64,000 bases of DNA. Origin: Pyropia yezoensis (Eukaryota > Rhodophyta > Bangiophyceae > Bangiales > Bangiaceae). This document shows, in pieces, positions 1-63,571 of this stretch; positions within the stretch are counted from its first letter, which is position 1; each line of letters opens with the position of its first letter. The notes beneath the pieces were generated by a model that was not told the origin of the DNA, ran no database searches, and was given only the letters and a program-made list of their open reading frames with translations. The stretch covers positions 20,507,346 to 20,571,345 of the forward strand of contig CM020618.1 of assembly GCA_009829735.1 (NCBI GenBank), written 5' to 3'. The position numbers were made by a program, and so were the translations under genes.

Positions 1-1
1 T

Positions 2-4438: not shown

Positions 4439-4455
4439 AGTGCGTATGGCGGCCC

Positions 4456-7325: not shown

Positions 7326-7886
7326 GAGGGCTTTGCTTTTGTTGGTTTCGTGTTGGCGTGCGCAGCGTGCTGCGTGCCCGTCTTGTTCATTGCGTGTGCC
7401 ATTTTGAATGCGTAGGACACTCGTTTGTGTTGTTCTCAGCGGTGCACGCGCGGCACCGTCAATGTTGTTCCCGCTGGCGTGTAAAAACAGTCAGCTCTTG
7501 GCAGCGACTCCAACTGGCCTCTTTCCTTTGCACAGAAAAACACCCTCGTCACTCCCGCGAGGCACTTCAAGCGTGCTGCCAACGCCCGAAGTCCCACAGA
7601 GGGCCTGTCGATCTACTCGGGCGCCAGGTTTCACAATCCCGCGCCCAGTCGTGCCCTTTCGACGCGCACGTTCCTCAAGCGGCACGCGGCGACCCCTGAC
7701 TGCCTCGGTCCCTCTATTCCGCCCAGCTAGCTGCTCAGGACGGTCCAGCACGGCTGTCCTGCAGTAAGTGCACATTGGTCACGCAGCGTGATTCCACGAC
7801 AAGGAGCCACCCAGGCCTGCGATCGGAGTTCAAGTCAGCGCTGGGCGCCAAAGCACCACGCAAAAAGGCAGACCCTATTCATGTGA

Positions 7887-7925
7887 GGAAAAAAAAATCC
7901 GCGACGGGGTAAAAAAAAAACCTTT
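7887..7925 (-). terminator. Double T-tract motif after transposase, copy B
   Basis: Copy of the motif at 1508-1546. It lies about 30 bp after the position where the unbroken transposase frame would stop (7956). Confidence 0.33.
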
Positions 7926-7955
7926 ACGCTCCAGCCCAATCGCTTCGACCCCCTG

Positions 7956-9781: not shown

Positions 9782-10224
9782 CTCTCAGCACGGCCGGCCG
9801 GGCCCCGACAAGTCGACATGACGTCGCGACGACTGGGTGGCGCTTCCGCTGCGGGGGCCTCAGCTGAGGCCACACTCACACTGCAGGTGGTAGCGAAGGC
9901 CGGTGGCCACGGTGGCAAAGAACAGCTGTCAAGGGTACGTCCCGTCCTTGGCGAGGAGAGAAGGGGCCGCGTGCGCGGGCACGACAGTTGCCGTCAGTAG
10001 CCGCAGGATACGGTGGCCGTGGTAGAGGGTGCGGCCAGCGTGGGAGCGGCCGCTCGAGACGGACGCAGAAACGGCCGCGTGGGCGGCAACGATGGTGGTG
10101 GCGACGACCGCGATCGGCAGGACGTCGGCAGGTCGGCACATGGGCTGGTATGGCCCAGCATCCATGCGTGGACCGTGCCCAGGGCACCCACCCCGGACAG
10201 GACAGGCCCGTGGGTAGCTGCGCG

Positions 10225-10815
10225 CCACCCTGCCCCCCCCCTCTGGATCGCAACCAGGGTGCTCCCCCCCCCAGTACCACGCCCACAGGCGGGGTGGGCA
10301 AAACCGCCCCGACTGGATGCTACCGGGGCACCGCCCCGCCTCCTCCCCCCCAAAAACATGCCCACAGGCGTGTGTGCTCCCTCCCCCCCCGCGCCGGGAT
10401 CGCACCCAGGGTGCCCCCCCCGCCCATTCCAGGCCCACAGGCGGGGTGTGCCCAACCGCGCTAGCTGGGTGCCACCGGGGCGCCGCCCCCCCACCGCCCC
10501 CCCCCAGAACCGTCCCACAGGCGGGTGGCTGCCGTCCAAGCCCGCCCCGCCCGGGACTCACCCGCGCGCCTCCCCCTAGAGCGGGCCCACAATTAAACGA
10601 GTGTTCCCCCCCCCCGCCTGCATCGCATCGAGGGCGCCCCCCCCCCCCCCCTCGAGCGCACTCACAAGGGGTGCGTGTCTCCTCCCCCCCCCCCACGTCG
10701 ATCACGCCAGGGCGCCCCCCCCCCCCAGTACAGGCCCACAGGCGGGTGTGTGCCCGCCCCCCCCCCCCCCCGAAACAGGCCTACAGGCAGGTGTGTGCCC
10801 GCCCCCCCCCCCTTG
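10225..10815. repeat. C-rich irregular tandem repeat, copy B
   Basis: Counterpart of 3840-4438, with the same CCCACAGGCGGG cores and C runs of slightly different lengths. No credible coding sequence. Confidence 0.8.
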
Positions 10816-24590: not shown

Positions 24591-24952
24591 TGTAGCAATA
24601 TGGTTGTCCGTATTGTGACCCGAATATCAGGGGGGCTACTTCTAACTCTTAACTTTCAATTTGAGAGTCCGAACTGGTCACGGTATCTATAAGTTACGTA
24701 TGACCAGAGGGACTTGCATCTTGGGGTGGAGGGTAGTTAGGAGTGTCTCCGAGGGTTTATAACGAGGGGGCCGGTGGCGAATTCACCGCCGGCCAAGGAG
24801 AACAACAAACCCCTCCCATTTGGGCTCCCATCTTGGTCCCGTGGCTTGCGCTCCAAGGACAGCAGCCTTGGCCTCCCGGTGACGTTGGTGCCGATCCCCC
24901 TTGGTGAGTGTTCCCTGAGAGTGGACGTGCGACGGATCCCTATTGTGCTACA
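24591..24952 (+). repeat. 5' LTR of element 1
   Basis: 362 bp, TGTAGCAATATGG to ATTGTGCTACA, with 7-bp inverted termini. It differs from the 3' LTR at four sites: G/T in GACCCKAAT, C/T in GGTATYTATAAG, C/T in TTTATAAYGAG and G/A in GACAGCARCC. Confidence 0.97.
24684..24762 (+). promoter_or_regulatory. TATA-like motifs in the 5' LTR
   Basis: TATCTATAAG at 24684-24693 (TATTTATAAG in the 3' LTR) and TTTATAA at 24756-24762 are the AT-rich motifs inside an otherwise GC-rich LTR. They are candidate core promoters for the genomic RNA; which is used cannot be told from sequence. Confidence 0.35.
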
Positions 24953-24953
24953 T

Positions 24954-24972
24954 TGGTGGAGCAGCAGGGGAC
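24954..24972 (+). other. Primer binding site of element 1
   Basis: TGGTGGAGCAGCAGGGGAC starts one base after the LTR. It would pair with a tRNA whose 3' end is CTGCTCC-A-CCA (acceptor 5' strand GGAGCAG). This is not the initiator-Met type (TGGTATCAGAGC). The same 19 bases occur at the matching place in element 2 (63487-63505, minus). Confidence 0.75.
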
Positions 24973-25177
24973 GGGTTTCCGTCACCCTTGTGGTGACGCC
25001 GTCTTCGGCCCCGGCACACGGATAGGGATCCGGTCCTTTTCTTGTACTCGTGGTGTTGCGACCTGATCGATTGTGTTGAGCTTTTACCTGTGACTGTGAC
25101 CTACTGTTACTCTCCCCAATCTACCCCCTCGCTCTCTTATTCGTGGTGATCGTTGCGTCGGTTGACTGATTGTGACT

Positions 25178-27361
25178 ATGTCTACCCAAGAGACGGGGAA
25201 CGTTCAAGATGACGGATCGGCGTCTACGCCGACTCCGGAGGTGACTACGGGAACCGGGATCGGGAACCCGATCGATAACATTGAGACGCCAATGCTTTCC
25301 GGTGCCGGATCGACGTTTGGCACGGCTCGGACGGCAGGAGGCGGGGGCCCGCCTCAACTGTCGTCGACCGACCTCACTCCGCCGCCTCCTTCACCAGGGG
25401 ATTCCCTGATGGCATCATTGGCCCGCATCGAGGCCCGGTTTTCCGGGCTCGACGCCCGTCAAGATCGGACGGAGGACGCAATGGCAGTGTTGATGTCAAC
25501 ACGGCACACGACGGGACCCCGTCGTGTTCCTCCCACACCGGTACGGTTCGAACCGGCCGGACTACTTTCGGAGTCCACCAGGGTCAACCCCGGTGTTGCT
25601 ACTCCTGGACAACCCCCGGACACAATGGGGTATGGGTCCGACTCGTCGGCAGAGTTGGAACGGAGTCACACGGAGCGATACGCTCGGAGCACCCGAAGCG
25701 GACTCCGCGGACACGACCCGGCGGATACGTACGCCGGGGGAGAGTCGGTTAATGGGGGAGGGGGTACCCTCTCGCAGTACCCCCACGACGAAGGAGGCCA
25801 GGCAACTCGGGTTCCCGAGGTGCCGACGCCTGAAGTACCATCTTCAGTGGTGGAAGCTATGACCGCGCAGGTAACTGCGAGCCTACTGAAGCGGATGGAG
25901 TCCGATGAGTTCGCTCATCAACTGGTTAAGCGACTGGATATCCAGGACGCTGACACGGAGATCGTCAACGAGGTATTCCGGTCGGTTCTTTCTCCGGAAC
26001 GTGATCGTTTGGAGGACCGCTCTACCACCGTATCGGAATCGATGCGTAATACGTCGCATCGGGCGATCCGCTCTATGCAGACCCTTATGAAGGGAGTCCC
26101 TATGTTCGGGGGGCCGAACGGACGCCCGTTGGCAGTCATCGGCTTCTTGACTAGCTTCAAGGCAGCCGCAGACAAGGCGCTCGTCAACGAGGGGCTGGCC
26201 CTGGAGATCCTCCCGTTCTTTGTTGATGAACGGGTGCGAGGCATTCTTCGCCAGGCATCCCCGATGCCGGGAATGAGGGTCGCGGCCACCCCCATGGATT
26301 ACCGTGGGATATTGAAGGAGCTGCTGAGCAGCTACCTCAGTGCGGACAAGTGCGAGGACCACTATCGGGCCCTTCGCACTGCCACCGCCCAGTCCTGGGA
26401 GGATGAGGAGATGTTTGCACGCCGGATCCAAGAGCTCGACTACGAGCTGGGGAAGCTCCTCGGAGAAGGCGAGCTACGGGCCATCCTGTTCGCAGGAGTA
26501 CCCAACTACGTGCGGATATCCGCACGGGGCGCCAACACGGCACGGACGAACTTCAGTCGACTGATGCATATGTGCAAGTCCCTAGGGGACGCCTACCGGG
26601 TTCTACACCCGGAGTGTGCCTTGGCCCCGAAGCCCAAGGGTGAGGGAGGCAAGCCCAGTCTTACCCCGGTACCGAGGCAAGAGAAGGTGGAACGTAAGGC
26701 CGCACCAGTACTGGTGGCGACCGAACATACCCCTATTGGTGAGGATGACCCTCTAGTCGACCAACAGGGCCACCTGTTGCTACCGGCGACGCCGGTGATT
26801 GATGAACATGGTACGGTAGCGTACATCGCCCCGGCTGGAACCCAGTTCCAGGTCAACGAAGGAACGGGACGGCGCGTCCCGTATGTGCGGACTACGGGGT
26901 ACTCCCCGGTGACGGGTAACCCTCACCAACCCTTGCCAACATGGGCGGTGCGCACGGAGGCACCTCCGCAGATTGCGGGCCGACCCAACCGGTTGGGGGA
27001 ATCCATGTTCCGGTTGACCCAAGGACCCAAGGCCTACCAGGGAGCAGGCACTCGGGCGCCCGAGGGAGGCAACCGTAGCTACGGGGCTACCCCGATGCGA
27101 ACTCAAGGGGGGACCGGCACGTCCGGGTGTATGTTGTGTGGGGATCCCCAGCACTGGGTGTCTTCCTGCCCACTCATCCCCGAGGAGTCCCGGCGGGCAG
27201 CGGCGCAACGCAAGGCATCCACCGGGGGGTATCCCGCCCGAGCACCCGGACCCGCACCGGGTAGGCAGCCAGCTCCAGGGGGAGTACTGGCCGTCGAGGG
27301 GGCACCTCCTCAGCCGGATGTCCCGGCGGACAGCACCCTACCAAGGGCGGGAAACGAGTAA
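25178..27361 (+). CDS. gag: Gag polyprotein of element 1 (727 aa)
   Basis: The first ATG is at 25178 (MSTQETGNVQDDG); the six bases upstream that also read open start with GTG. The N-terminal third is Gly/Pro/Thr-rich and disordered. A helical capsid-like region follows (AHQLVKRLDIQDADTEIVNE; KAAADKALVNEGLALEILPF; YLSADKCEDHYRALRTATAQ; ISARGANTARTNFSRLMHM). A single CCHC zinc knuckle (CMLCGDPQHWVSSC) lies near residue 650. The protein packages the element RNA into cytoplasmic particles. It ends at TAA 27359-27361, eight bases before the pol ATG and in a different frame, so pol must be made by frameshifting, bypass or re-initiation. Confidence 0.93.
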   Translation: MSTQETGNVQDDGSASTPTPEVTTGTGIGNPIDNIETPMLSGAGSTFGTARTAGGGGPPQLSSTDLTPPPPSPGDSLMASLARIEARFSGLDARQDRTEDAMAVLMSTRHTTGPRRVPPTPVRFEPAGLLSESTRVNPGVATPGQPPDTMGYGSDSSAELERSHTERYARSTRSGLRGHDPADTYAGGESVNGGGGTLSQYPHDEGGQATRVPEVPTPEVPSSVVEAMTAQVTASLLKRMESDEFAHQLVKRLDIQDADTEIVNEVFRSVLSPERDRLEDRSTTVSESMRNTSHRAIRSMQTLMKGVPMFGGPNGRPLAVIGFLTSFKAAADKALVNEGLALEILPFFVDERVRGILRQASPMPGMRVAATPMDYRGILKELLSSYLSADKCEDHYRALRTATAQSWEDEEMFARRIQELDYELGKLLGEGELRAILFAGVPNYVRISARGANTARTNFSRLMHMCKSLGDAYRVLHPECALAPKPKGEGGKPSLTPVPRQEKVERKAAPVLVATEHTPIGEDDPLVDQQGHLLLPATPVIDEHGTVAYIAPAGTQFQVNEGTGRRVPYVRTTGYSPVTGNPHQPLPTWAVRTEAPPQIAGRPNRLGESMFRLTQGPKAYQGAGTRAPEGGNRSYGATPMRTQGGTGTSGCMLCGDPQHWVSSCPLIPEESRRAAAQRKASTGGYPARAPGPAPGRQPAPGGVLAVEGAPPQPDVPADSTLPRAGNE

Positions 27362-27369
27362 GAGGAAGG

Positions 27370-30300
27370 ATGACCGGGGGGCGCTGGGGTTACCCAAGCA
27401 AGCCACCCCGGAGTACCGCGGGGAAAGCCCCACGGAGAGCGCGGTTGAGCCGACGCCGCATCAACCCCCGGGTACACCTTCCGGCCCCGACGACACGGCG
27501 TCAGGGGATTGATGACCAACCTCCAAGGTTGGGAGGAGAGGACGGGAAGCCCCGTCACGTTGAACCAGACAAGGGCCCTGTTCAGGATGCCCGAGCTACA
27601 CCGGATATCGGTGTAGGACATGTGTTGTTTACCTTGGAGAACTTCAAGGTATCAGCCACACTGGGGGTTGACCCCCAGTCGACACGATCGTACTACCCTG
27701 TACTGGATACAGGGGCTGGACCCAACCTTATCCAGAAGGATACCCTCCCGGACAAGTGGCTTCCACGAGTCAGAGTGACTCGGGGACCCACCATCAAGGA
27801 CGCGAATGGTCGACTCATTCGTACGACCGCAGCGATGTCGCTGCGGGTTACCATCGGGGATCTCACCACGGAAGTTGACTTCCTGGTATGTGAAACGCTA
27901 TCGGTGCCCTGCATACTGGGGTGCACCTTCATCAACGTTCACGTTGATGCAATCCGGCCAGGCCGGAGGACCGTCGAGCTTCAAGAAGCCGACGGGACGA
28001 AGCGAGGACACACGGCTATCGTCAGGGATCTGACGCTACAAGGAAGCCACGTTAACGTGGCTGAGGTGTACGCAAGCGTCGAGCCGAAGACACTTCGATT
28101 GGCCAAGCGAACTCGCTTTGAGCCGTTGTCAGAGACAGTCCTCCCGGTTAACTGCGACCTCGCAGGCATCTGCAGAGTCCAGTCCAACCTACGGACGTAC
28201 AAGCGCCATGGGTTGACCATGGCCAACGGTCTCATAGACCTCCCAGCAGGAGGGTCGTCCCTCCTAGTGATGGCGAACTATCGCCGTAAGGCAGTCACCC
28301 TCCCGAAGGGAACTATCCTCGGGATTGCCGAACTCTACGAAGGAGATATCCTTACCCCTGATAAGGAAGGTCAAGTGGAACCACTTGAAGTACTGGCGGT
28401 CGCCGAGACCACCGAGCGACAGCAACCCGATGACGGGAAGCCTAACCCATCGGCGGCTCCGGCGGACCTGCCGCCAAAGGACCAACAGGCCTTGAAGGCA
28501 CTGGCCGAGGCTGACCTCGACCACCTTCCCCCTTCGGTAGCCGAAGGGGTACGACGGATGCTAAGAAAGCATGACGTTATGTGGACAGGCGGGGCCTTGG
28601 GGACCATTGGGGCAACCCAACATCGTATAGACCTGGTACCAGGCGCACGACCCGCCCGCTCACAACCGCACCGAGCGGGACCTATGCAACGAGAGATCGT
28701 TGATGGAGAAGTGAAGAGGATGAGTGAAGCTAAAGTGATCCGACCTTCGATGTCGGAATGGGGTGCCCCAGTCGTTAATGTGCCGAAGAAGGATCAAACC
28801 CCTCGGTTTTGCATCGATTATCGACGCCTCAACTTGGTTACCAAGAAGGACTCATACCCTTTACCAAGGATGGATGAATGCATCGACTCCCTGGGGGAGG
28901 CTACGGTGTTTACCACCATCGACTGCAATGCCGGATACTGGCAGATCCCGGTGGCGGACGAGGATATCCCCAAGACGGCATTCGTCTGTCACAGTGGAGT
29001 GCACGAGTTCCTAAGGATGCCCTTCGGATTGTCCAACGCCCCAGCCACATTCCAGCGGGCTATCGACATCATACTGTCGGGGGTGAAGTGGCGTAACTGC
29101 CTAGTGTACCTCGATGACGTCATCGTCTTCTCGCGTAACATGGATGACCATGTACAACATGTTGACGAGGTACTCACCCTCTTGAGGAACGCCGGGGTAA
29201 CCCTGCGTCTGAAGAAGTGCGCCTTCTTCCAACAGACGGTCGAATATCTGGGCCACCAGATAACCCCTGGTAAACTAGGGGTACTCGAAGCCAATACCCG
29301 GGCACACCGGGATGCCCGCTTCCCTAACACCCAGACGCAGCTCAAGAGCTTCCTGGGAATGTGCAATGTATACCGACGGTTCGTCAAGGACTTCGCTCGG
29401 ATAGCTAAACCGTTAACGGTTCTTACGAGCAGTACCTTACCCAAGGTACTCCAACCCCCTTCGCCTAGCGAAGAGGAGGCATTCGAGTCGCTGAAGCGAG
29501 CCCTACTAGCCCCACCCGTCCTTGCGTTACCGCATAGACGGGGTACCTTCGTCATCGATGTCGATGCGTGTGATACACAAGTGGGATGCACCCTGTTACA
29601 GGGAGAGACGTTGATAGGTACCGACAACGTTATCCCGGACCTACGTCCGGTAGGGTACTTCAGCCGGACACTCAACCCGGCTGAGCGGAACTATAGTGCC
29701 ACCGAGCGTGAATGCCTCGGAGTTATATGGGCAGTGCAACTGCTCCGTCCATACCTGGAGGGCTCCAGGTTCATCGTGAGGTACGACCACGAACCCCTAC
29801 GATGGCTCCTCAACCTTGGTGACAAGGATTCCGATAGCCATGGGAGGCTAGCCCGATGGAGGCTGAAGATGGCCGAGCACGACTACCGCACGGTGTATAA
29901 GGCTGGGTCAACCCACCACCTCGGAGACGCGTTGTCTCGACTCGACACCCCGAGCGGGGATACCCGCCCGGTGGACGAGGACATCCCGGTGGTACCGGTG
30001 TGCATGGTGGGTAATGCTACCCAGGGTATGGCTGACCATACCATGGCACACCTTGGGTGCCCATTGACCCTCGCGGACGTCCGCGAGGCACAGGCCAACG
30101 ACGATGACTGTAGACGTCATCGTGCTAACCTCCTGGCCGGTACGGCCGGCATCTTCTCCGAGAACGAAGACGGACTCATATACCGGCGGGCACCCGCCGA
30201 TGGACGACATCAAGTCGTGGTTCCCGTGTCCTTACGGCAAGCCGTCATGAAACGAGAACATGAGAACCCTACAGCCGGACACCCGGGGGGTTCACGTATG

Positions 30301-31536
30301 TTCGCAGCAATGCGAAGGTTCTTCTACTGGCCAGCAATGGCCGTCGACGTGGTCGACCACGTAAGGGGATGCCACCCCTGTGCACGTAACCGCATGAGTC
30401 TACATAGGCGGGCGTCTGCCATGAAGCTATTCCCACCTGATGGGCCCAACGAGCAAGTCGCTATCGACATACTCGGGCCACTTCCGATAACGGAAGAAGG
30501 GAACAGGTACATCCTGGTCATGTCTGACCGCTTCACTAAGCTGTCAAGAGCGGCAGCCATCCCGAATGATACGGCATACACGATCATGAACGCAGTGGTT
30601 GACCACTGGATCAGTGCATACGGAGTCATGAAGCAACTCCTCTCCGATAACGGAGCAAACCTTACGTCGGCATTCTGCACTAAGGTCCTGGGCATGTTCG
30701 GTATCGAACCACGTCGGGCATCCGACTACCACCCGCAGTCCAACGGGCAGGTGGAGCGGTTCAACCGCACCATCGTAAAGATGCTACAGTGCTACGTGGC
30801 CGAGCACACGAACACTTGGGACAGGCTTCTGTCCGTACTCACCCTGGCATACAATGCCAGGCCACATCGGAGCACAAACATTGCTCCGCTGGAGTGGGTC
30901 ATGCCACTAGGCGTCGGTAACCTGACGCTGCCAGCCGGCAGGTGCACTCGGTATGATACACCGAAGGGCCGACCCGCCGAACGCATCCACCTAGCTTGGT
31001 TGGCCAAGCTATCGTGGATGATTCCTAAGCTCAAGGGTGCCCTTGACAGAACACAACTTCGATACAAGAAGAACTTCGACGCCCGACTACGGGTGCGCAA
31101 CGCAACCCTGGTAACAGGTGACTGGGTCTATATCAGACACCAGAAGTTCCGAGGGAACAAGCTTATGCAACCGGTCAAGGGACCGTACCAGATCCTCCAC
31201 AGAGATGACCACTCTGTTATCTTACACTCCGATACGGAGATTCAACGCATCAGCATGAATGATGTCACACCTGCTCCGATGCCGGAACAGCCTCAGCCGG
31301 TACCGGCTGGGTTGCTACATGAAGCTCTTACAACCCACCGGTCAGATGACCCGGTGGGACCGGATGGGATTCCATACCAAGTAGAGAGCGTAGTCGGACA
31401 CACCGACCCGGACCTACCAGGACCCTGGTACGTCAAGGTTATGTGGGTCGGATACGACTCACCCACCTGGGAACAGGCGGCAAATATACCCCGCCAACTC
31501 CTCATGCCGTACATGAGGCGACGACGCCTACTGTAA
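27370..31536 (+). CDS. pol: Pol polyprotein with C-terminal chromodomain, element 1 (1388 aa)
   Basis: Intact. Aspartic protease: VLDTGAGPNLI with Asp at 113. Reverse transcriptase: FCIDYRRLN, SYPLPRMDE, MPFGLSNAPATFQRA and the catalytic YLDDVIVF at about 580-587. RNase H: FVIDVDACDTQVGC and RYDHEPLRWL. Integrase: an HHCC finger (REHENPTAGH...GCHPCARNR), then the DD35E core with Asp 1033 (VAIDILGPLP), Asp 1093 (LLSDNGANL) and Glu 1129 (SNGQVERFNRT). The last ~53 residues (YQVESVVGHTD...WYVKVMWVGYDSPTWEQAAN) form a chromodomain, which defines chromoviruses and can direct integration to modified histones. The DNA is packed with short palindromes (see findings). The stop lies 80 bp before the 24-bp hairpin repeats and about 480 bp from the end of the antisense gene. 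Confidence 0.97.
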   Translation: MTGGRWGYPSKPPRSTAGKAPRRARLSRRRINPRVHLPAPTTRRQGIDDQPPRLGGEDGKPRHVEPDKGPVQDARATPDIGVGHVLFTLENFKVSATLGVDPQSTRSYYPVLDTGAGPNLIQKDTLPDKWLPRVRVTRGPTIKDANGRLIRTTAAMSLRVTIGDLTTEVDFLVCETLSVPCILGCTFINVHVDAIRPGRRTVELQEADGTKRGHTAIVRDLTLQGSHVNVAEVYASVEPKTLRLAKRTRFEPLSETVLPVNCDLAGICRVQSNLRTYKRHGLTMANGLIDLPAGGSSLLVMANYRRKAVTLPKGTILGIAELYEGDILTPDKEGQVEPLEVLAVAETTERQQPDDGKPNPSAAPADLPPKDQQALKALAEADLDHLPPSVAEGVRRMLRKHDVMWTGGALGTIGATQHRIDLVPGARPARSQPHRAGPMQREIVDGEVKRMSEAKVIRPSMSEWGAPVVNVPKKDQTPRFCIDYRRLNLVTKKDSYPLPRMDECIDSLGEATVFTTIDCNAGYWQIPVADEDIPKTAFVCHSGVHEFLRMPFGLSNAPATFQRAIDIILSGVKWRNCLVYLDDVIVFSRNMDDHVQHVDEVLTLLRNAGVTLRLKKCAFFQQTVEYLGHQITPGKLGVLEANTRAHRDARFPNTQTQLKSFLGMCNVYRRFVKDFARIAKPLTVLTSSTLPKVLQPPSPSEEEAFESLKRALLAPPVLALPHRRGTFVIDVDACDTQVGCTLLQGETLIGTDNVIPDLRPVGYFSRTLNPAERNYSATERECLGVIWAVQLLRPYLEGSRFIVRYDHEPLRWLLNLGDKDSDSHGRLARWRLKMAEHDYRTVYKAGSTHHLGDALSRLDTPSGDTRPVDEDIPVVPVCMVGNATQGMADHTMAHLGCPLTLADVREAQANDDDCRRHRANLLAGTAGIFSENEDGLIYRRAPADGRHQVVVPVSLRQAVMKREHENPTAGHPGGSRMFAAMRRFFYWPAMAVDVVDHVRGCHPCARNRMSLHRRASAMKLFPPDGPNEQVAIDILGPLPITEEGNRYILVMSDRFTKLSRAAAIPNDTAYTIMNAVVDHWISAYGVMKQLLSDNGANLTSAFCTKVLGMFGIEPRRASDYHPQSNGQVERFNRTIVKMLQCYVAEHTNTWDRLLSVLTLAYNARPHRSTNIAPLEWVMPLGVGNLTLPAGRCTRYDTPKGRPAERIHLAWLAKLSWMIPKLKGALDRTQLRYKKNFDARLRVRNATLVTGDWVYIRHQKFRGNKLMQPVKGPYQILHRDDHSVILHSDTEIQRISMNDVTPAPMPEQPQPVPAGLLHEALTTHRSDDPVGPDGIPYQVESVVGHTDPDLPGPWYVKVMWVGYDSPTWEQAANIPRQLLMPYMRRRRLL

Positions 31537-31613
31537 CAACCCAACCGACACCGACTTCGGCTGTTGGGGGGTGAGGCTTATACCTACTAAGTAGGGTGTG
31601 ACAGGGTTACGGC

Positions 31614-31709
31614 AGACTTAGGTTTCTAAGTCAAATCAGACTTAGGTTTCTAAGTCGAACCAAGCTTAGGTAACTAAGTAGAGCTAAGCTTAGGTAACTA
31701 AGTAAAACC
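31614..31709. repeat. Four 24-bp hairpin repeats between pol and the antisense gene
   Basis: Four units with an exact 24-bp period (31614, 31638, 31662, 31686). Each holds a small palindrome: GACTTAG-GTTT-CTAAGTC in units 1-2 and GCTTAG-GTAA-CTAAGT in units 3-4. The array lies in the convergence zone of pol (+) and the antisense ORF (-). Further on, GGAGGATGACCTCCCCAAG is repeated at about 31781 and 31818. 31537-32014 has no ORF. Confidence 0.9.
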
Positions 31710-32014
31710 TGAACCTTAATAAGTTAACTTAAAGGTAAAGGCTAACTCCGATAATATCGAAGTAACTAGGGAGCTTACACGGGAGGATGACCTCCCCAAG
31801 CCAAGACACCGAGGGAGGGAGGATGACCTCCCCAAGCATGAACCTACCGGAAGAAGTTGGACGGGAGGCAAGGCACCACTGAGCCAGAAGGGGTACTCCC
31901 CAGGGCAGCAAACAGAGGCAAGCAATGCCCCCAAAGGGGATGAGTTTATACTCACTACTACCCGGCTACCATAAGGGTTGCCGGGGCCCTCTCCCGCACA
32001 AACAATAGCACTCC

Positions 32015-34462
32015 TCAGTGGGAAGACCCACTGCCCGAGGGAGGCCACTCACGCGTAAGCGCGTAGACCTCCGTGCTCCACCGGTCGGCAACGTCACGAC
32101 GGTCGACCACCCGAGTTACCTCGGTGCATAGCTGGACGAGGGTGCTGCGGCCAGCCTCCACGTCCTCCAGAGCTTTCTGGAGGCGGTCCAGCACGCCACC
32201 GAAGCAACGCGCTGACCCAACCAGCGCAGCACCTGAGGGGATATCCCCCCAGCTAACAGAGAGACCCCCACGCATTGCGCGGGTAACAAGGGCGTCAACG
32301 CCTTCATACCAGAGACGGGGACCCCCGTCATGTAGGACAGGGGCGGGAGGTGACACTGGCGCAGCCAGAGGAGCCACAGGAGCCGACACGGCTACCACCG
32401 GAGCCGGTGGCACCTGATACGAGGCCCGGTAGGACCCTACCGAAGGGGCTCCACCGTTACCACGGCGGTACTCCGCCCGACGACGGGACACCTCACGCTC
32501 CCCACCCACAGAGCCCCACTCTCGGGGACGACGGCCAACCGCCGCCGGCATCGGGTTACCGAACCACGGAGCAAGGACCTGAAGAGGGTCATGGATAACC
32601 ATGGGAATACCCAGGTCAGCAACAGCCTCGGTGGATGCCCACCCATGGCAACTGGGCTCACCCTGCTGAGTACGCCGGACACGCAACGAGTGACGAGGCA
32701 AGGGGGAAGCCCCAGCCTGCGGGTCCCGGTACGGGGGAAGGGCCAACACCCCAGCCCAGTTCACGGCATCGTGAACAGCCAGCAGGGCTTCGAACTCCCG
32801 GGCCAACCCGGTCTTGGCGGCTTTCAGATCCACGCCCAACTGCGCGATGTGCCGACGGACACCCGTCGGGAGATGAAACAGACGACCCTGCCGGCGGACG
32901 GACAGCAAGAAGGATGAAGCCTGCCCGAGGGTAACCTCAAGGGTGAAGGTACCCTGCAACGGGTGGACCGGTCGCGAGGCCAACACACTCCCGAAGTAGC
33001 GAAGGCAGGAGCCGGTGTCAAACCGGAAAGCAGGGGCGGGTTCCCACCCCTCCTGCCATAGCGGCGGGCGCACGGGAGTGTATACCGGAGCACGACCGTT
33101 GCCGGTCTGCAACGCACACGTTATATCCGTGCGGAACGCATCCGCCATGACACCATGGTTACGTCGCCAACTCGACGCCGACTTCAACCCCGCCATGGGC
33201 GGGTAGGGAGACGTCAACGACAGATACGGGGGTACCCCCGGGTAGTAGTCAAAGTCGGGATACCGACCGGTACGGCTCACCGTCTCCCCAAACGCAACCG
33301 GCTCCGCCGCCGCCGCAATCCCCCGAGCACTAGCCGGGTAGTCAATCTCCCGCGGCAACGCGGGGGCAATCAAGTCGCAGACCCCGAAGTTGGGGTCGAG
33401 GTAGACCTCACCCCGTCCCACCCGGGTGCGCCAAAGCTGCGCATGCCGGTCGTCCGGCTGACTCAGGATCCAATGATGTTCCACCCGGACCGCGTTCGGC
33501 TGGTTGACCAGCCGCACCAACTCCCGCTCCCAGCTCGGGTCCACCTTAACGCGGCGGGAGGACTCTCCACGGGGATGCACCAGGTGGAAGTCCACCCGCA
33601 TACGCCCATCGGACTCCATCGACTCTTGCACCGTGAGGCCTCGAACCCGAGCCACCAAGTCGGACACCGACATGGCGGGTTGACCCGCCGCCACGGCGAC
33701 GCCGCCACCCAACGGGGCAACCCGGGCAGGACCAGGAAGAATCGGGGGCGCCGGGGGACGCACCACCGGCAGAGGGGCCGACGTCGGAGATGGACGAGGC
33801 CGAGGAGGAAGAAGAAGGGCGGGCGCCCGCCCGGAGTAACTCCCGGTGTCAACCGCCATGGGAGAAGGAGCGTCTTGACCGCTCGACGCCCGCGGCACCG
33901 CAGGTACGGCACCGGCGCCGGCACCACCCGTCGGCGTAGCCCCCGCCTCGGAAGGGGAAGGCACTTGGACAGCCTCCGGAGCCGGAGCCCCGGCCGTGCG
34001 GACACCCGCACCGTCTTGACCCACCGCACCGGGTGTCGCACCGCCACCACCACCCGCGTCAACGTCGGGACCGCCTCGAGGAGTCACCGCCCGGACACCC
34101 GGACCACCTTGACCAGCCGGAGTCGGCTGCGGGTCGCCACCTCCGCCGCAGGGCGGACCATCTTGAGGTAGCTGCGGTGAGCCGGCACCGGCCCCAGGCT
34201 CCATCCGGGCAGCCGGCAGAGAGGGGGTAGAAGCCGCCACGCGCGGTTGACCGCCGGGTTGACCTCCGGCCGACGGCACCGTCGTGCCGCTGCACACGGA
34301 CGACAGTCCTCCGGCCGACAGACGGACGGACACCGCAGGCCCGTCGTCGTCAGACGAGCTCACCCCGTAACGCGCGGCGTCGGGACCGACAGGCGCGTCG
34401 TCCTCCATCTCCTCCCCGATCAGGAGGTCTTCCTCCTCTTCAAGCACCTGGGGATAGGACAT
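32015..34462 (-). CDS. Long antisense ORF of element 1 (815 aa from the likely ATG)
   Basis: Minus-strand frame open from 34744 to the stop at 32015. I place the start at the ATG 34462-34460 (MSYPQVLEEEEDLLIGEEME) because element 2's antisense protein also opens with a short acidic stretch ending in MED; upstream ATGs exist to 34744. Residues 1-290 are acidic then Pro/Ala/Gly-rich. From about 290 the sequence becomes globular (MRVDFHLVHPRGESSRRVKV; VNQPNAVRVEHHWILSQ; VGRGEVYLDPNFGVCDLIAP). Residues 490-560 contain FGSV, LEVT, VRRQGRLFHLP and FEALLAVHDAVNW, collinear with element 2. It ends LQKALEDVEAGRSTLVQLCT and a Ser/Gly tail. No known enzyme, capsid or envelope domain is recognised. It lies between pol and the 3' LTR on the opposite strand and would need its own promoter or the 3' LTR firing antisense. 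Function unknown. Confidence 0.8.
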   Translation of the reverse strand: MSYPQVLEEEEDLLIGEEMEDDAPVGPDAARYGVSSSDDDGPAVSVRLSAGGLSSVCSGTTVPSAGGQPGGQPRVAASTPSLPAARMEPGAGAGSPQLPQDGPPCGGGGDPQPTPAGQGGPGVRAVTPRGGPDVDAGGGGGATPGAVGQDGAGVRTAGAPAPEAVQVPSPSEAGATPTGGAGAGAVPAVPRASSGQDAPSPMAVDTGSYSGRAPALLLPPRPRPSPTSAPLPVVRPPAPPILPGPARVAPLGGGVAVAAGQPAMSVSDLVARVRGLTVQESMESDGRMRVDFHLVHPRGESSRRVKVDPSWERELVRLVNQPNAVRVEHHWILSQPDDRHAQLWRTRVGRGEVYLDPNFGVCDLIAPALPREIDYPASARGIAAAAEPVAFGETVSRTGRYPDFDYYPGVPPYLSLTSPYPPMAGLKSASSWRRNHGVMADAFRTDITCALQTGNGRAPVYTPVRPPLWQEGWEPAPAFRFDTGSCLRYFGSVLASRPVHPLQGTFTLEVTLGQASSFLLSVRRQGRLFHLPTGVRRHIAQLGVDLKAAKTGLAREFEALLAVHDAVNWAGVLALPPYRDPQAGASPLPRHSLRVRRTQQGEPSCHGWASTEAVADLGIPMVIHDPLQVLAPWFGNPMPAAVGRRPREWGSVGGEREVSRRRAEYRRGNGGAPSVGSYRASYQVPPAPVVAVSAPVAPLAAPVSPPAPVLHDGGPRLWYEGVDALVTRAMRGGLSVSWGDIPSGAALVGSARCFGGVLDRLQKALEDVEAGRSTLVQLCTEVTRVVDRRDVADRWSTEVYALTREWPPSGSGSSH

Positions 34463-35033
34463 GATAACGGGTGCGGAGTCCCCCGCGCCCACAAGCCGTC
34501 GACGGCTACAACCCGGTACGGTGGGATAACCGGGACGAGCCAGGGAAGCGCGGACACCCGCGCTTATGACCACAAACGGCCACGAGAAGCGCCGCAGGCA
34601 CGCGGGTCGACCCACGCCCCACGGGGCTACGAACGCGCTCCACCCAGGCACCTGGGCGGGACGGGGCCACCCCCACACACGGGGTAAGCAAGCGGGGTCA
34701 CCCCCAACCGCCCCCACGCAACGCGGGCAGCCCCCGCCCCCCACTCAATCGCCCACACGAGAGGGACCCCCCTACCACCAGGCACCTGGTGGCGGATCCG
34801 CTTGCACCACCCCTCGGAAAGGGGGGTCGTGAACAAAAACCCGCATCGGGAAATTAACGGTCCGGAAAACGGATCGTGTGTGTACCACACAAAGGGGGGC
34901 ACCCCCCTCGGACAACCTCGAAAAGGGGTGTCTGTCGCGACGGGGCGCAAAGCCCCACCCGACGGGTAAACAGTCACGCGACCCACTTACATTCGGTAAC
35001 CCGAATGCAACTCGACCCGAGGACGGGCCGAAT

Positions 35034-35047
35034 CTAAGGGGGGGATA
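35034..35047 (+). other. Polypurine tract of element 1
   Basis: AAGGGGGGGATA directly before the 3' LTR, the expected plus-strand primer. 34745-35033 upstream has no gene and is rich in short palindromes. Confidence 0.75.
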
Positions 35048-35409
35048 TGTAGCAATATGGTTGTCCGTATTGTGACCCTAATATCAGGGGGGCTACTTCT
35101 AACTCTTAACTTTCAATTTGAGAGTCCGAACTGGTCACGGTATTTATAAGTTACGTATGACCAGAGGGACTTGCATCTTGGGGTGGAGGGTAGTTAGGAG
35201 TGTCTCCGAGGGTTTATAATGAGGGGGCCGGTGGCGAATTCACCGCCGGCCAAGGAGAACAACAAACCCCTCCCATTTGGGCTCCCATCTTGGTCCCGTG
35301 GCTTGCGCTCCAAGGACAGCAACCTTGGCCTCCCGGTGACGTTGGTGCCGATCCCCCTTGGTGAGTGTTCCCTGAGAGTGGACGTGCGACGGATCCCTAT
35401 TGTGCTACA
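35048..35409 (+). repeat. 3' LTR of element 1
   Basis: 362 bp, same boundaries as the 5' LTR, followed by CCCCC (target duplication) and then TCGATC of the flank. Confidence 0.97.
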
Positions 35410-51608: not shown

Positions 51609-54604
51609 GTGATGATCGATTGTCCTGTGTTCGACTGCGGGGAGCAGTTCGTGTACTCCATTTTATTGGGTCGCCACCTACGGAGGCGCCATGCCTTTGA
51701 TGGGCGACGTCCCGTCGACGATCCCGGGAATGCTCGTGGAGAGGGCTGCGGTGATGCCAATCCAGTTGGAGGCGCAGCAGGCGGGGGCGATACAGTCGGT
51801 GGCGGTGGTGAAGATGCTGGTAGTGTGGCTGGAGGTGGTATGGGCGAAGAGGATGCAGGCCCTCACCCTAACGATCTTGGAGACGACTGTGCAAGCTCGG
51901 TCGGGACAAGTGACGGTGAGAGCAGTGACTCGGATGGATTCATGGACGAGGATCACAGTGAACCTGATGACGAGACGGACGAGGAGGGGGTGCTACCAAG
52001 CGATGACACTGGTTCAACTGTCGCAGAGGACGCGTGTTTTGAGACCTGTGGTTCCCTGCGAGTGGGGGCAGAAGGCGAGTCGATCGAGCCCGCGGACGAC
52101 GTGGAGGATCACGCCTTGTCCAAGTTGTACTCCCTTGCCGCACGTCATCATCCGGGGGAAGTGGATATTGGAGCAGGCGACCTTGGGGCCTCGTTCTGCG
52201 GTCAAGTGTGGGACTACTACAACGCACTGCCGTGCGCCAGCAACTCCGTGTATCACCCTGCAACGTTTGCTTCATCCCACACGCACGTGTCTGCATTTAG
52301 GTCTCCTGCAACGAGACAGTTCTTGTTCTGCGTTTGTACGTCTGGTGGCACTGGTGTGTCGAAGGGTGAGGTCGCCCGGCTCTATCGCCTTTGTCGACGG
52401 GTCGAAGACGGGACCGGCTCGACTACCAGACCCATCAAGGACGCCTTCAAGTCTCCAACCGCCATCAAAGAGGCTGTTCAGAAGGAGAAGAAGCGACTGT
52501 TGCAGTCGCTGGGATGGAAGGAGGCCGACGCTCCTACCGTGCTTGGACCGCAGCGTATCATCTTCCGCAGTGGCATGGCGGAGGTCATGAAGGCAGTCGC
52601 CTCGGCACCAGTTATTCGTTGGGAGCGTGGAGGTGGTACCTGCAACTGTCGAGAGGGTGTGCGCTACGACCGACCCAACTGTGATACAAGCAAAGGCAGT
52701 GTGTTGCAAGGCGACCCAAGCAATGTCGAGAGTCCTCGGGTTGAAAGAGGTTGCCGCGCTTGCACTCCTGAACTCGACGAGTGTGGCGAGCCGCGGCTTT
52801 CACCGATGCAGAACGACGACGTGTTACGTGACTGCTTCGATGGGAAAGCGTACGGGGCCCAGAGAGCCGATGTGCTCAAAGTTCTCGGCATGGGTGCGCT
52901 CATGTTGGCCTTGGCTCTTTACTCGGACGGTACTGTCGTGACCACCTCTGGAGGAAGACATGCCACTTGCCACCTTTGGCGACCATTGGGTACATTCTGC
53001 AGTATGTGGCGCCACAGCTTCGTCAGCGTTGCGTTGATACGTATGTGCGTCGCCTTGTATTGTGGAGGTGTTGCATCGACTTGCATTTTGTTGTATCTTG
53101 TTGCGTTGCACGATGTGTACCGTACTGACATCGTGTCCGCATATTTGGTCACCACCATGCCTCTCCACAGGTGTGTCTGCTTACCCGATAAGAATGAGGA
53201 TTAAGAACTTGTTGTCGCGTGTGCCTGTTTGGGTGACTGTGGCATATGTTCCACAGGTGTGGGCAGACTTCCAGAAGTGCTCGGCATCCAACGCCGCTGC
53301 AGCGCGTGCGCAGGTGTTGCAGCACACGCTCAACCTGGCCTTTGGCGACCTTATGCGTGCGAGTCACTTCGGCGTTGCAGTTACCATGCTGGACGGTACG
53401 CAAGGCATTGTATCGCCTCGCGTCGTACTGTATGTCAGTGATCAGCCTGAGGAACGAGACATTGTGTGTCTGAAGAGGCACGGTACGGCCTTCAGCTGTA
53501 CACTTTGTATGGCTCCTTTAAGCAGCTGTGGTCGTCGGCCGAGTGTGCCACACAAGCAGCGCAACGTGTTGAAGACGGTGGGCAAGCAACTCAAGGGAGC
53601 TCGAATGAGAGGGTCCTATGGTGCGGTTGTCGTGATTGATGCAATGGAGATGAAGTATAGTATCCACTGTATCATACCTGCACTGGCAGCCTGGGCGGGT
53701 CTGGGCTCCGGGTGTCTTCTGCTCTACAAAATATTCGGATTAGACCGCCTGCATGTACGTTTACCATTTCGTTTATGTTTGTGTGGGTAGTGTGCTGTTG
53801 TTGATTGTATGTCGCTGCATGTCGCTGTCTTCCGTACGAGGTAACTGTGTATGTTTGTCATTCCCTTTATGTTCTTGCCACTTAATAATCATGTACGTGA
53901 CGAGACAGACGTCCCACCGCAGTGCACTCTTTGTTATGGCCTGGTCGTCTCGTTCGCCAGGTGATCGATCTTGGTATCCGTCGGGATCTGACAAAGGGCG
54001 TGTACAACTACGCGAAGGCGACTGCGCGACAGGGACTTCTCCTCCATGGGACAGACACAGAGTCGATACGTCACGCTAACCAGCGGTTCCGCTTCGCATT
54101 CCGCACCCATCTCGTCCCCTCTGTGGCCCCCGGCTACTTCATTAAGCCGGGTGTGTTGCAAGCCACGCTGAAAGGAAAGGAGCACCGCGACGCTGTGCAT
54201 TTCCTGCCTTTTGCGGTTGCAGGCTTGTTTGGGCGAGGTGCCCCCGGTCGTCGATTCCATGGGATATTGACATGGAGCATCTGTGAGCTGGCGGCGCTGC
54301 TCAGGGACTTCTTCGACCCGCGGGCGAAGACGTGGCGCGATGCCAAGGACCTGTGCGAGCGGTTTTCAGATTGGGTTGAGAATGACTTCCACGAGCTGAT
54401 TGGCGAGACCAACACGAGCAAGGTGCATCGCACTGTATCTCATCTCAAAGATGAGTTCTTGTTGCGCGCGAGTGTGATTGACGGCAACACCGGCGCAAAC
54501 GAGGCGCTGCATAAGTATGTGAAGCGGGCCTTCCAGCTCACCAACAAGAACCGCGGACATGCAGCGCTACAGATGGTGTTGGCTGAGCAGATATCGACCC
54601 TCAT
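51609..54604 (+). pseudogene. Plavaka/CACTA-like DDE transposase with C2H2 finger, introns, truncated by an LTR element
   Basis: Exon 1 starts near 51612 with a C2H2-like finger (CPVFDCGEQFVYSILLGRH plus LRRRH), an acidic linker, then FCGQVWDYYNALPC and MGALMLALALYSDGTVVTTS. The acceptor CTCCACAG at 53163-53170 joins to GVSAYPIRMRIKNL and VPVWVTVAYVPQV, together the Plavaka-type block (SDGT...SAYPI...YVP). Later come SHFGVAVTMLDGTQGIVSP, VLYVSDQPEERDIVCLKRHG and CTLCMAP. A second intron (53755-53960, GTACGT...TCGCCAG) joins LLYKIFGLDRLH to VIDLGIRRDLTKGVYNYA exactly. The donor of the first intron is not certain. The last exon is cut at 54604 (AEQISTLI) by the LTR of element 2, so the C-terminus is displaced into or beyond the terminal gap. 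A related KDZ-type assignment is less likely. Confidence 0.62.
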
Positions 54605-55073
54605 TGTGGCAAAAACCACAAGCACACACGGCACCCAAGATGGGGCGGTGTGCTAGGGCTGCCTCCCGTGTCGGGGGAACCGGAAGAAGTGCAAGTCGCA
54701 CACACTCTGTCCTTGTTGTGGGGCAAACCCCCCACGGACAAACAAGAGGATGGTGTGTGGTCCAACAGTTTCTTGGTCGGCACGGGGACGCAGGGCCAAG
54801 CCCCGCTGTCCCTCCCCTTATCCCCCCAGGGTCCACTTAGAATCTCGCCACTCAGAATCTCCCACCCCAGCACCTGCCCACCGGGCCACACGAAAATTCA
54901 AGACGATAAATGCAGAAAACCCTCAAATCCAAGTTGGATTTACTACTAAGCTAACTATCCCAAACTTAGGGAATATGGACCCAAATGCAGGGGGAGGAAC
55001 GGACCAGGCTAGTGGCCTGCCGCCCCTTGCATGGCACGTGTTGCCCCCCTACCTGGGGGTCAATACTGCCACA
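54605..55073 (-). repeat. 3' LTR of element 2
   Basis: 469 bp; on plus it starts TGTGGCAAAAACCAC and ends ATACTGCCACA, with 7-bp inverted ends. Relative of the solo LTR at 18216-18683. The outer flank is CTCAT (54600-54604); the matching target copy would be beyond the gap. Confidence 0.92.
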
Positions 55074-55411: not shown

Positions 55412-57355
55412 ATGGCGACTCCGGGAGTGGAGACGGACTCTCTTGACGAGCGCATGGAGGACACCTCCTACGGTGCAGCACCCGCCGGGACTTCCGGCGG
55501 GGGCTCCGCGATCGCTCTGGGGGGCGGGACTCCCGCGTCACCCGGCTTTGGGTTGACGGCGGGGTCTCCCCCGGAGGCGGGACAAGTTGTCCCGCGTGAG
55601 GCCTTGGGGCGGTGGTTTTACCCCGCTTGGCCTCTCTATGAGGAGGGGCTGACTGTTCTTCGCTGTGGCCGACTTGGCGCAGCGATGGGCCGGGTATGGG
55701 ACCGCCTACGGGAGAAGTATCCCCGTAGGGTCGGGTTCCCTGCCGGCTTCAGGACGGACCAGTTTGCCTTCCTGGACGATGAGGAGGTTGAGGACGTTCA
55801 GCGGGCCAAGGCCATGGTGGACCGCGGGGGAACTATCCCGGGTCCCGGCGACTTGCCGACCTTCACGTGGGACGCTGTGGCAACTCGCCCACCGTACCTC
55901 CACGAGGCCGATCCGCACACTCATCACTTTGATGTGCGGATGGAGAAAGACTTCCGGCGAGGTCCCTACTTGGTGACCTCGGCTCAACTTGAGTTTCCTC
56001 AACAGTCTGCTGCCAGTAAGGAGCAGTACTATCCGAAGAAGCCCGAGTGGTGGCCTCAAGTTGAGGTCCCCTACGGGTTCCCGGCGTTGTTGCCACGGTT
56101 GCTTGACCACTTCGGCTCAGTCATGTTGACGGCTGCCCCTGATCACCTGGTGTGGGCCATGTTGGCCACCCAGTGGCTCCTCGAGGTCATGTCGACCTGG
56201 GTGTCCTGTGTTCAGCGGCGGGGGATGCTCTGGCATCTCCCCCTCCGGCTCATCCAAGGTTGGGAACAGCTCACCCCTCAGCTAGTTGCTGAGGGGTGCT
56301 CATCAGGACAACTCACTCTACTTGAGGAGATGCTCCGGCTCCATAAGTTTATCGAGTGGGAGAGCATTGAGCACAAGTTGCGCCGCCCCACTCGTGGGCC
56401 CAAGGACGATGGCGCACTTCGCCAGTTCGTGTGGGTCGCTCGTGAACTTCACGACGGCCGTGTGGTCCTACGAGAGGGGTTGGGTATCGGGGACTACCCG
56501 TATGCCCCGGGGGTGGATCGCCACACTGCGCCACCCCCGGACAAGCCCATAGTTATGGCCGTGCCGTCCTATGATGACCATATGACTCAACCCACTGCGG
56601 GGGCCCTAAGTCGGGGTCGCAGTTACACCCGGGTACCGCCACCTCGGCGGGCCCCTCCGCTTCCTCCTGTTCCTTTCCAACCTCACGGGAACATCCCGAT
56701 CAGCGTGGCCGTGGAGTCTTCCACCCCGGTGTCCCCCAACTTGGGGGCCACCCTCCTGACGGTATACCCCAAGTTGGTGTTGCCGCCCACGCCTCTAACC
56801 TCAGAGATGATGATCACCACGTTGGTGCGCACCATTTCCTGGTTGGCCGCGTCGACCGCAACCCTACAGAGTTCCGAGACTCCTCAACTTGAGGAGCGCG
56901 TTCGTACTGCAGTGGCGACCGCGAGTTGCGAGTCGGTGGCGGAGTTTATGACAGCCGAGCTGGCTCGCATTGGGGCTATTATGCCCCAGCCAGCCCCACT
57001 TGGGCGTGGCAAACGTCGCGCGAGCCGGGCATACTCGCCTCCTCGCCGTCGTCGCCGACACTCGCGGCGCTCTCCTTCCGTATCGGAAGACAAGCTGTCT
57101 TACTCCGTTTCGGAGTCCTCTACCCCGTCGGAGACGGAGTCTGTCCAGCGTCTGCGTCGCAAACTTGCGCGCAAGACCAGGCAGAAGAGTGGCCACGGTC
57201 GGCGCCACTTGCGCGACCGTGAGGGGCGCGACGGTTCCGACTTGGAGCCGCCGCCCACTCCAACGAGTGGAGACCGTTATCGGCGTGGGTCTCGCCGCTC
57301 GCCTCCACTTAAGGGCAAGGGCCGTGGAGTGGGAGAGTCTAGCATGCGTGCCTAG
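55412..57355 (+). CDS. Long antisense ORF of element 2 (647 aa)
   Basis: Plus-strand frame, antisense to gag-pol, open from 55241; the first ATG is at 55412 (MATPGVETDSLDERMEDTSY). Residues about 70-330 look globular: REALGRWFYPAWPLYEEGL, LREKYPRRVGFPAGFRTDQF, DLPTFTWDAVATRPPYLHE, then FGSV at 234, LEVM, VQRRGMLWHLP and LEEMLRLHKFIEW. These match FGSV, LEVT, VRRQGRLFHLP and FEALLAVHDAVNW of element 1's antisense protein in order, with spacings equal to within one residue. The C-terminal ~150 residues are Arg/Ser-rich (YSPPRRRRRHSRRSPS; SVSEDKLSYSVSESST), SR-protein-like, suggesting nuclear or RNA-binding behaviour (inference). Intact although gag and pol of the same copy are broken. The stop lies about 110 bp from the pol stop, so the genes converge. 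No known domain recognised. Confidence 0.82.
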   Translation: MATPGVETDSLDERMEDTSYGAAPAGTSGGGSAIALGGGTPASPGFGLTAGSPPEAGQVVPREALGRWFYPAWPLYEEGLTVLRCGRLGAAMGRVWDRLREKYPRRVGFPAGFRTDQFAFLDDEEVEDVQRAKAMVDRGGTIPGPGDLPTFTWDAVATRPPYLHEADPHTHHFDVRMEKDFRRGPYLVTSAQLEFPQQSAASKEQYYPKKPEWWPQVEVPYGFPALLPRLLDHFGSVMLTAAPDHLVWAMLATQWLLEVMSTWVSCVQRRGMLWHLPLRLIQGWEQLTPQLVAEGCSSGQLTLLEEMLRLHKFIEWESIEHKLRRPTRGPKDDGALRQFVWVARELHDGRVVLREGLGIGDYPYAPGVDRHTAPPPDKPIVMAVPSYDDHMTQPTAGALSRGRSYTRVPPPRRAPPLPPVPFQPHGNIPISVAVESSTPVSPNLGATLLTVYPKLVLPPTPLTSEMMITTLVRTISWLAASTATLQSSETPQLEERVRTAVATASCESVAEFMTAELARIGAIMPQPAPLGRGKRRASRAYSPPRRRRRHSRRSPSVSEDKLSYSVSESSTPSETESVQRLRRKLARKTRQKSGHGRRHLRDREGRDGSDLEPPPTPTSGDRYRRGSRRSPPLKGKGRGVGESSMRA

Positions 57356-63507: not shown

Positions 63508-63571
63508 TAGGGAAAAAACCACATGCACACACGGCACCCAAGTTGGGGCGGGGTGCTAGGGCTGCCTCCCG
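63508..63571 (-). repeat. 5' LTR of element 2, partial
   Basis: Matches the start of 54605-55073 (ACACACGGCACCCAAG, GTGCTAGGGCTGCCTCCCG) until the gap. The terminal TGTGGCA is altered to TAGGGAA. Over about 60 comparable bases there are several differences from the other LTR. Confidence 0.8.

Follow-up and report, generated by a model that had tools for sequence, protein, structure and literature searches.

A Protein-Coding Antisense Gene with Two Discordant Parts in Long Terminal Repeat Retrotransposons of the Red Alga Pyropia yezoensis

The stretch of DNA analyzed here, hereafter the window, comprises 64,000 nucleotides of contig CM020618.1 from Pyropia yezoensis and contains two retrotransposons with long terminal repeats (LTRs), elements 1 and 2, each of which carries a long open reading frame (ORF) between pol and the 3' LTR, on the strand opposite to gag and pol. 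We designate these two frames aORF1 and aORF2. Pyropia is a bangialean red alga, and the genome of P. yezoensis is characterized, in the part of its description drawn on here, as high in guanine and cytosine (GC) and rich in LTR elements (PMC7423979); within the window, the GC content ranges from 0.47 to 0.67 per 2 kb.

Element 1 (24591–35409) is complete, with LTRs that match at 358 of 362 positions, TG..CA ends, and flanking bases that show CCCCC as the 5-bp target duplication. On the plus strand, its 5' LTR (24591–24952, 362 bp) is followed by the primer-binding site TTGGTGGAGCAGCAGGGGA, common to elements 1 and 2, by gag (25172–27361; 729 amino acids [aa], with a weak zinc knuckle at residues 653–667, zf-CCHC_2 expect value [E] 0.075, below the cut-off), by pol (27370–31536; 1388 aa, with protease, reverse transcriptase [RT], RNase H, integrase, and a chromodomain-like C-terminus) and finally by the 3' LTR (35048–35409, 362 bp). 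The pol gene and aORF1 (32015–34462, minus strand, 815 aa) converge on an intergenic region (31537–32014) with four 24-bp repeats (31613–31708) and two identical 21-bp repeats (31781–31837), internally palindromic. Alignment gaps of 24–48 columns suggest fewer copies of the 24-bp repeat in the elements assigned below to subfamily B. Between the start of aORF1 and the 3' LTR lies a 585-bp region (34463–35047) that terminates in a purine tract and is a candidate site for an antisense promoter. A sense ORF of 338 aa overlaps aORF1.

Element 2 follows the same plan on the minus strand of the window: the end of its 5' LTR (63511–63571, a 61-bp match of 93%, bordered by a run of N from 63572), a gag region interrupted into three ORF pieces (61647–63187), a pol with a stop near 58340 and a chromodomain-like C-terminus (57467–61450), aORF2 on the plus strand (55412–57355; 647 aa, with a basic Arg/Ser-rich C-terminal tail), and the 3' LTR (54605–55073; 469 bp, TGTGGCA..TGCCACA). 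Both the coordinates and lengths of the two antisense frames and their location between pol and the 3' LTR had been proposed in the original prediction, and both are borne out. Between the two elements, identity amounts to 42.5% over 1023 aa for pol (33% in its C-terminal 289 aa) and to 24% over 220 aa for gag.

The same prediction regarded pol as chromovirus-type. The C-termini of both pol proteins match Pfam Chromo (E 0.0057, 17.0 bits, and E 0.00075, 19.8 bits; curated cut-off 25.1 bits), PDB chromodomain proteins match the pol of element 1 with E 0.25–0.68, and both pol proteins contain KGPYQ, which we take to resemble the GPY/F motif. A chromodomain on pol is likely, and so is the chromovirus-type assignment, which falls short of proof given matches under the Pfam cut-off and these PDB values.

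Judged by sequence comparison, the antisense proteins of both elements are homologous. BLASTP aligns them with 24% identity over 230 aa (E 6e-10), and a comparison of their profiles gives E 7e-6 (probability 84). When element 2 is left out of the family profile, the profile recovers aORF2 from the six-frame translation of the window with E 4e-6, the runner-up being at 0.085; no further relatives of the antisense proteins were found in the window below E 0.08. The two proteins had been expected to be more alike than shuffled sequences, and this is the case: The Smith–Waterman score of the pair is 122, whereas 1000 block-shuffled versions have a mean of 47 and a maximum of 73, with 0 of 1000 reaching the real score. 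When 36 frame pairs were compared, the in-frame antisense pair alone scored (48.5 bits), the others giving at most 22.3 bits with E of at least 1. The collinear motifs reported earlier for both proteins are present; the spacing from FGSV to HLP, however, is 40 and 41 residues from start to start, about one below the 41–42 given for it. The divergence of the antisense proteins roughly matches that of gag.

The mere openness of these frames is less informative. aORF1 lies inside an open run of 909 codons and aORF2 inside one of 724 codons; in Markov simulations (1000 each) the longest open runs were 480 and 498 codons, but simulated means of 238 and 205 codons and real open runs elsewhere in the window of up to 636 and 539 codons make run length weaker evidence than homology.

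To follow the gene beyond the window, the genome was searched (11 contigs totaling 107.5 Mb, of which three measure 29–44 Mb). Among the best-scoring copies, 52 of 55 scored full-length copies of aORF1 lack a stop, and all 68 scored copies of aORF2 are full length and without one. Each of these 68 shares at least 98% identity with the copy in the window, and one identical score recurs in 41 of them, which suggests a recent burst, though gag and pol of the window copy are interrupted. Within a set of 44 loci with a core match (the core being defined below) of more than 500 aa, from which L038 (same place as L004) and the tandem copies L014–L016 are excluded, the core is open in the antisense frame in 38, and in each of the other five frames in none. 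The C-terminus of pol was found on the strand opposite the antisense gene in 35 of the 38 loci L001–L038; for the tandem copies L014–L016 it was not found within flanks of approximately 1.5 kb.

Selection acts on the antisense frame. In codon alignments, the ratio of nonsynonymous to synonymous divergence (dN/dS) of the core between subfamilies is 0.26–0.28 for A–B, 0.36–0.38 for A–C, and 0.28 for A–D; measured against aORF1, it is 0.25–0.29 for B, 0.26–0.46 for C, and 0.28–0.29 for D. For four pairs all six frames were compared, and the antisense frame had the lowest dN/dS (0.28–0.36), followed by one frame at 0.42–0.47 and four at 0.96–1.91; in the pair L001–L017 the other frames gave 0.42 for the mirror sense frame, then 0.97, 1.25, 1.83, and 1.89. 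The low value of the mirror sense frame stems from the third positions that it has in common with the antisense frame. Differences between A and B (L001–L017) fall on codon positions 1, 2, and 3 in the numbers 125, 87, and 225. The N-terminal tail has a dN/dS of 0.36–0.70 for B and 0.34–0.41 for C, and pol has 0.05–0.15 in 15 of 17 pairs, the remaining two being 0.19 and 0.27. The antisense gene is under purifying selection in its own frame, less strongly than pol; in this lineage of LTR retrotransposons it constitutes an accessory gene that codes for a protein. Selection on the antisense protein, as had been predicted, is upheld by the between-subfamily core values of 0.25–0.46 and the six-frame comparison, and a check for disrupted copies, which had been proposed as a means of refuting it, found the core open in 38 of the 44 loci.

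Comparison among the related loci shows that the antisense gene is built of two parts, an N-terminal tail and a core plus C-terminus, with discordant divergence among related elements. In aORF1 the exchangeable core and C-terminus (32015–33820, minus strand, aa ~215–815) has edges at ~31980 and ~33820, placed by nucleotide identity in 20-base steps and by alignments of related loci, and these correspond to the 3' end of the gene and the end of the acidic tail; the acidic Gly/Pro/Ala-rich tail, discordant with the core, takes up 33821–34462 (minus strand, aa 1 to ~214). Subfamily B (L017, L032, L023) is 0.80–0.98 identical to A per 100 bases in the LTR, the upstream region, the tail, and the intergenic region, and falls to 0.64–0.85 inside ~31980–33820. 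Subfamily C (L040, L046) shows the reverse, with 0.85–0.99 inside these edges and 0.58–0.82 in the intergenic region and tail; its pol C-terminus is again 0.85–0.99 identical to A. The edges are common to the three B loci and the two C loci.

Synonymous divergence (dS) from aORF1 gives the same picture. For B, the tail has dS 0.11–0.16 in 9 of 10 loci (L011, aligned over 136 codons only, has 0.39) and the core 0.72–0.79 in all 10 (L011: 0.75), with a pol C-terminus at 0.23–0.30 and an intergenic region 81–91% identical; for C, the tail has 0.76–0.84 and the core 0.12–0.18, each in 6 of 6 loci. The ratio of A–B to A–C dS is accordingly ~5 in the core, ~0.8 in the pol C-terminus (L040), and ~0.2 in the tail. 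Four of the six C loci (L051–L054) combine a C tail with an A-like core and an A-like intergenic region (91.5–97.4%), a combination that indicates that the tail, too, moves separately from the rest, and in L042, which groups with A, the tail is partly aberrant (dS 0.41). Outside the antisense gene, the comparison covers ~1 kb of pol and small RT pieces; dS of the RT piece is 0.11 for A–B (198 codons) and 0.62 for A–C (109 codons), and no gag match was found for B and C in the fetched pieces L047 and L049. L047 (G000:C3:6138400-6140800) has, upstream of a subfamily-B element, the pol of another element (37% to the pol of element 1) where gag is expected, suggesting nesting or truncation.

The same arrangement of C tail (87% to L040, 52% to aORF1) and A-like core (94.5% to aORF1) occurs in P0004, a family member from the source lgn, which makes an assembly artefact of this genome unlikely. 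Weaker constraint on the tail was considered for P0004, where 144 of 223 tail positions and 311 of 329 core positions are identical, and was rejected because the tail is of C type. As dS is largely free of protein-level selection, its discordance calls for recombination, and recombination between coexisting elements is the best explanation of the discordance between tail and core. Such module exchange likely provides a natural mutational map, in which the junction of tail and core and the 3' end of the gene mark likely functional units.

The antisense proteins themselves give few clues to their function. In aORF1 an acidic Gly/Pro/Ala-rich tail (aa 1–263, isoelectric point [pI] 4.3) precedes a basic core (aa 264–611, pI 9.6), after which comes another, C-terminal part; aORF2 starts acidic (pI 4.1), is near neutral in its middle (aa 61–380, pI 6.5), and ends in the Arg/Ser-rich basic tail (pI 11.9). 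Simple hydropathy reveals no membrane helix in either (maxima over 19 residues, 1.37 and 1.23), neither contains a CxxC or zinc-knuckle-like pattern, and searches of Pfam, PHROGs, NCBIfam, and PDB by sequence (best E 0.16) gave no convincing match; a match to DUF6214 (E 0.014–0.074) is below the cut-off. An envelope role is unlikely in the light of these three negative results. An origin from gag was also considered and rejected, as BLASTP similarity to either gag was never better than E 0.05. As for a nested DNA transposon, no inverted repeats framing the antisense gene were found among repeats at most 300 bases apart, and none with arms of at least 80 bp in 20000–64000.

Relatives outside this genome were found by protein searches, for each of which the 8000 best candidates were scored. 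Pyropia vietnamensis encodes a relative with 51% identity over the whole query region, among several records annotated as hypothetical protein, and is the only named organism with relatives among the candidates scored; further family members occur in contigs of the sources ena and lgn. Searches of the viral_contigs and genome_contigs collections, also with pol, gave no relatives. The matches to these outside relatives are at the level of the protein.

Antisense ORFs between pol and the 3' LTR are described for maize Grande (GENE23), rice RIRE2, and Silene Retand (ORF4/TRP28), where, according to the sections of the two papers used here, they occur in most copies, are conserved like other element proteins, and have an unsettled function (PMC7264820, PMC11963269). 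The comparison with plant elements made in the original prediction is apt, as aORF1 and aORF2 have the same position and orientation and are conserved in most best-scoring copies. The same sections report that about half of the surveyed Retand elements have tandem-repeat arrays between pol and the 3' LTR, that GENE23 is nuclear and has its own promoter (PMC7264820), and that DNA binding is predicted for TRP28 (PMC11963269). In contrast to Retand, which is called a non-chromovirus there, the elements described here have a chromodomain-like pol; they also differ from the plant elements in their red-algal host and in module exchange, which these sections do not mention (PMC7264820, PMC11963269). 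No match to Transposase_28 (PF04195, the TRP28 family) was found up to E 1 in both antisense proteins, or up to E 10 in eight members of the aORF1 type.

Outside plants, the Boty-like elements of the fungus Botrytis cinerea carry the antisense gene brtn, described in two papers (PMC7264820, PMC8365987) and assigned to the aORF-3R class by the first of them. Like our elements, they are LTR retrotransposons with an extra gene in antisense orientation; protein searches with the antisense genes described here named no relative outside Pyropia, and the distinction from brtn is one of description only. REM1 of Chlamydomonas is, in the portion of its report cited here, a Ty3/gypsy chromovirus in which a reverse-frame part represents a truncated integrase with GPY/F and chromodomain (PMC2774666). 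It is likewise an algal element with a reverse-frame part; by contrast, aORF1 and aORF2 contain no Pfam chromodomain (no search for GPY/F was made in either), and pol retains a C-terminus of its own. A 2012 survey, as far as the part consulted goes, names three red algae without retrotransposon chromodomains (PMC3350952). Searches of the open-licence literature, judged by titles and abstract openings, brought up no report of this gene or of module exchange in such genes. The class of antisense ORFs between pol and the 3' LTR is already known from Grande, Retand, and Boty, whereas the mosaic structure is new. Arabidopsis VANDALs, which are DNA transposons, encode the anti-silencing proteins VANC; as fast-diverging accessory proteins of mobile elements, these serve here as a working analogy, drawn independently of sequence comparison.

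Antisense accessory genes of LTR retrotransposons are on record for plants and a fungus; the family reported here would extend them to another major lineage with a chromodomain-like pol, and it shows codon-frame-specific purifying selection in numerous copies that belong to several subfamilies of a single genome. Its exchanged modules make the function of the gene testable.

Our overall explanation, the best we can offer and one to which we give about an even chance, is that of a selected mosaic antisense gene with its own mRNA, a trans-acting nuclear accessory product, and exchange by template switching. The antisense mRNA would be transcribed separately, started either by a dedicated promoter in the region that separates the ATG from the 3' LTR or by the 3' LTR itself; the product would be soluble, non-enveloped, and non-enzymatic, and would enter the nucleus and act in trans on the chromatin, the RNA, or the preintegration complex of the element, an action also proposed for the antisense ORF proteins of plant elements such as Grande and Retand. 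Exchanges of tail and core would most likely come from template switching between copackaged genomic RNAs while these are reverse transcribed. On the analogy of Grande GENE23 and Retand TRP28, we favor a trans-acting, probably nuclear accessory factor; the palindromic intergenic repeats are conceivable candidates for its binding sites. The capsid, packaging, nuclear, and antisense-RNA roles listed in the original prediction all stay candidates.

It should be noted that several observations weigh against this explanation. In the genome search, the best copies are scored first, which favors intact ones, as does the choice of L051–L054, which were hand-picked among loci with a long (825-codon) open frame, and 9 of 38 loci (L006, L009, L010, L012, L014–L016, L023, and L025) have a stop inside the core. 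Ratios among near-identical copies scatter more and are higher than those between subfamilies: Core dN/dS is 0.26–0.83 in eight pairs within A, 0.58 and 0.69 within B, and 0.62 within D, each resting on few changes; three pairs within A give 0.22–0.46 and C gives 0.33, and the tail within A, again with few changes, gives 0.20–1.62. The low complexity of the tail makes its alignment rougher. Trees of the core and of the pol C-terminus agree in topology, joining A with C against B; the grouping of A with B is rejected for the core (approximately unbiased test, p-AU 0.0017), whereas pol does not reject it (0.20); the names of the groups were chosen with the data already in view. As no topologies conflict, the claim of exchange rests on the discordance of dS and the common edges. 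A nuclear role, finally, relies on analogy, basic clusters being present at aa 532–550 of aORF2 and few in aORF1, and the searches leave the core without a role assigned by domain.

The main rival to a nuclear regulator is a component of the particle made from a separate mRNA, such as a second capsid-like, packaging, or RNA-binding factor, which we think unlikely while taking it more seriously than any other alternative. The solubility of the protein, the basic core of aORF1 (though the corresponding pI is 6.5 in aa 61–380 of aORF2), the basic C-terminal tail of aORF2, and a divergence between elements resembling that of gag are all consistent with it, but BLASTP similarity to gag better than E 0.05 and zinc-knuckle-like patterns are missing, and antisense ORFs known from this position are linked, in the section cited, to nuclear localization (PMC7264820). 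Somewhat more doubtful is that diversifying selection acts on the swapped core as a recognition domain, whether in telling self from non-self among elements or against a host silencing factor, so that exchange would be favored and not merely tolerated. Two discordant modules, breakpoints that recur near the tail/core junction and the 3' end of the gene, three coexisting tail–core arrangements (a-a, a-b, c-a), and divergent core types A, B, D, and E in one genome fit such a domain; the between-subfamily core dN/dS, on the other hand, does not exceed 1, the intergenic region and tail are exchanged too (L051–L054), as free recombination would give, and the comparison spans only the ~1 kb of pol and small RT pieces, without gag. 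A more speculative version, improbable in our estimation, would have a two-module specificity gene with recognition by the core and an effector or interaction function of the acidic tail, whose recombinants escape host silencing or distinguish own copies from relatives; with equal reserve, it would liken the antisense gene to the exchangeable specificity domains of other mobile elements.

That the function resides in the antisense RNA, through double-stranded RNA and self-limitation of copy number with the ORF as a by-product, appears very improbable. The convergent layout would yield double-stranded RNA if both strands were transcribed, as discussed for other elements in the part of the review cited (PMC7264820), but constraint between subfamilies is specific to the codon frame, the core is open in the antisense frame only, and a related protein in another species is 51% identical; a purely RNA role is inadequate in view of constraint at the protein level. 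That the frame is open by chance in GC-rich DNA, or mirrors a sense-strand gene, has next to no probability left. This reading could draw on the lengths of chance and real open runs given above (means of 205–238 codons, real runs to 636) and on the overlapping 338-aa sense ORF, yet every sense frame has stops over the core in all 44 copies, the homology is frame-specific, and the dN/dS of the best sense frame (0.42–0.47) is as expected from shared third positions, which refutes it.

Several observations concern the arrangement of the copies and the remaining mobile-element content of the window. Four copies of the antisense gene (L030, L014–L016) lie in tandem with a period of 3489 bp at G000:C2:9880067-9892399, and L014–L016 each show an LTR. 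Same-strand copies of equal score occur in pairs approximately 5–15 kb apart, for example, at G000:C1:3314250/3319288 and C3:1925175/1930153, as if in tandem element pairs. In the window itself, positions 1–10800 contain a large tandem duplication with an offset of ~6379 bp (repeat arrays 121/6500, 785/7164, and 2081/8459), and a Plant_tran/DDE_Tnp_4 transposase is encoded at 1577–3403. A fragment of a Plavaka-type transposase lies at 53062–53790 (Pfam E 1.4e-8), and the ORF upstream of it (51609–53204) has a weak C2H2 finger, below the cut-off.

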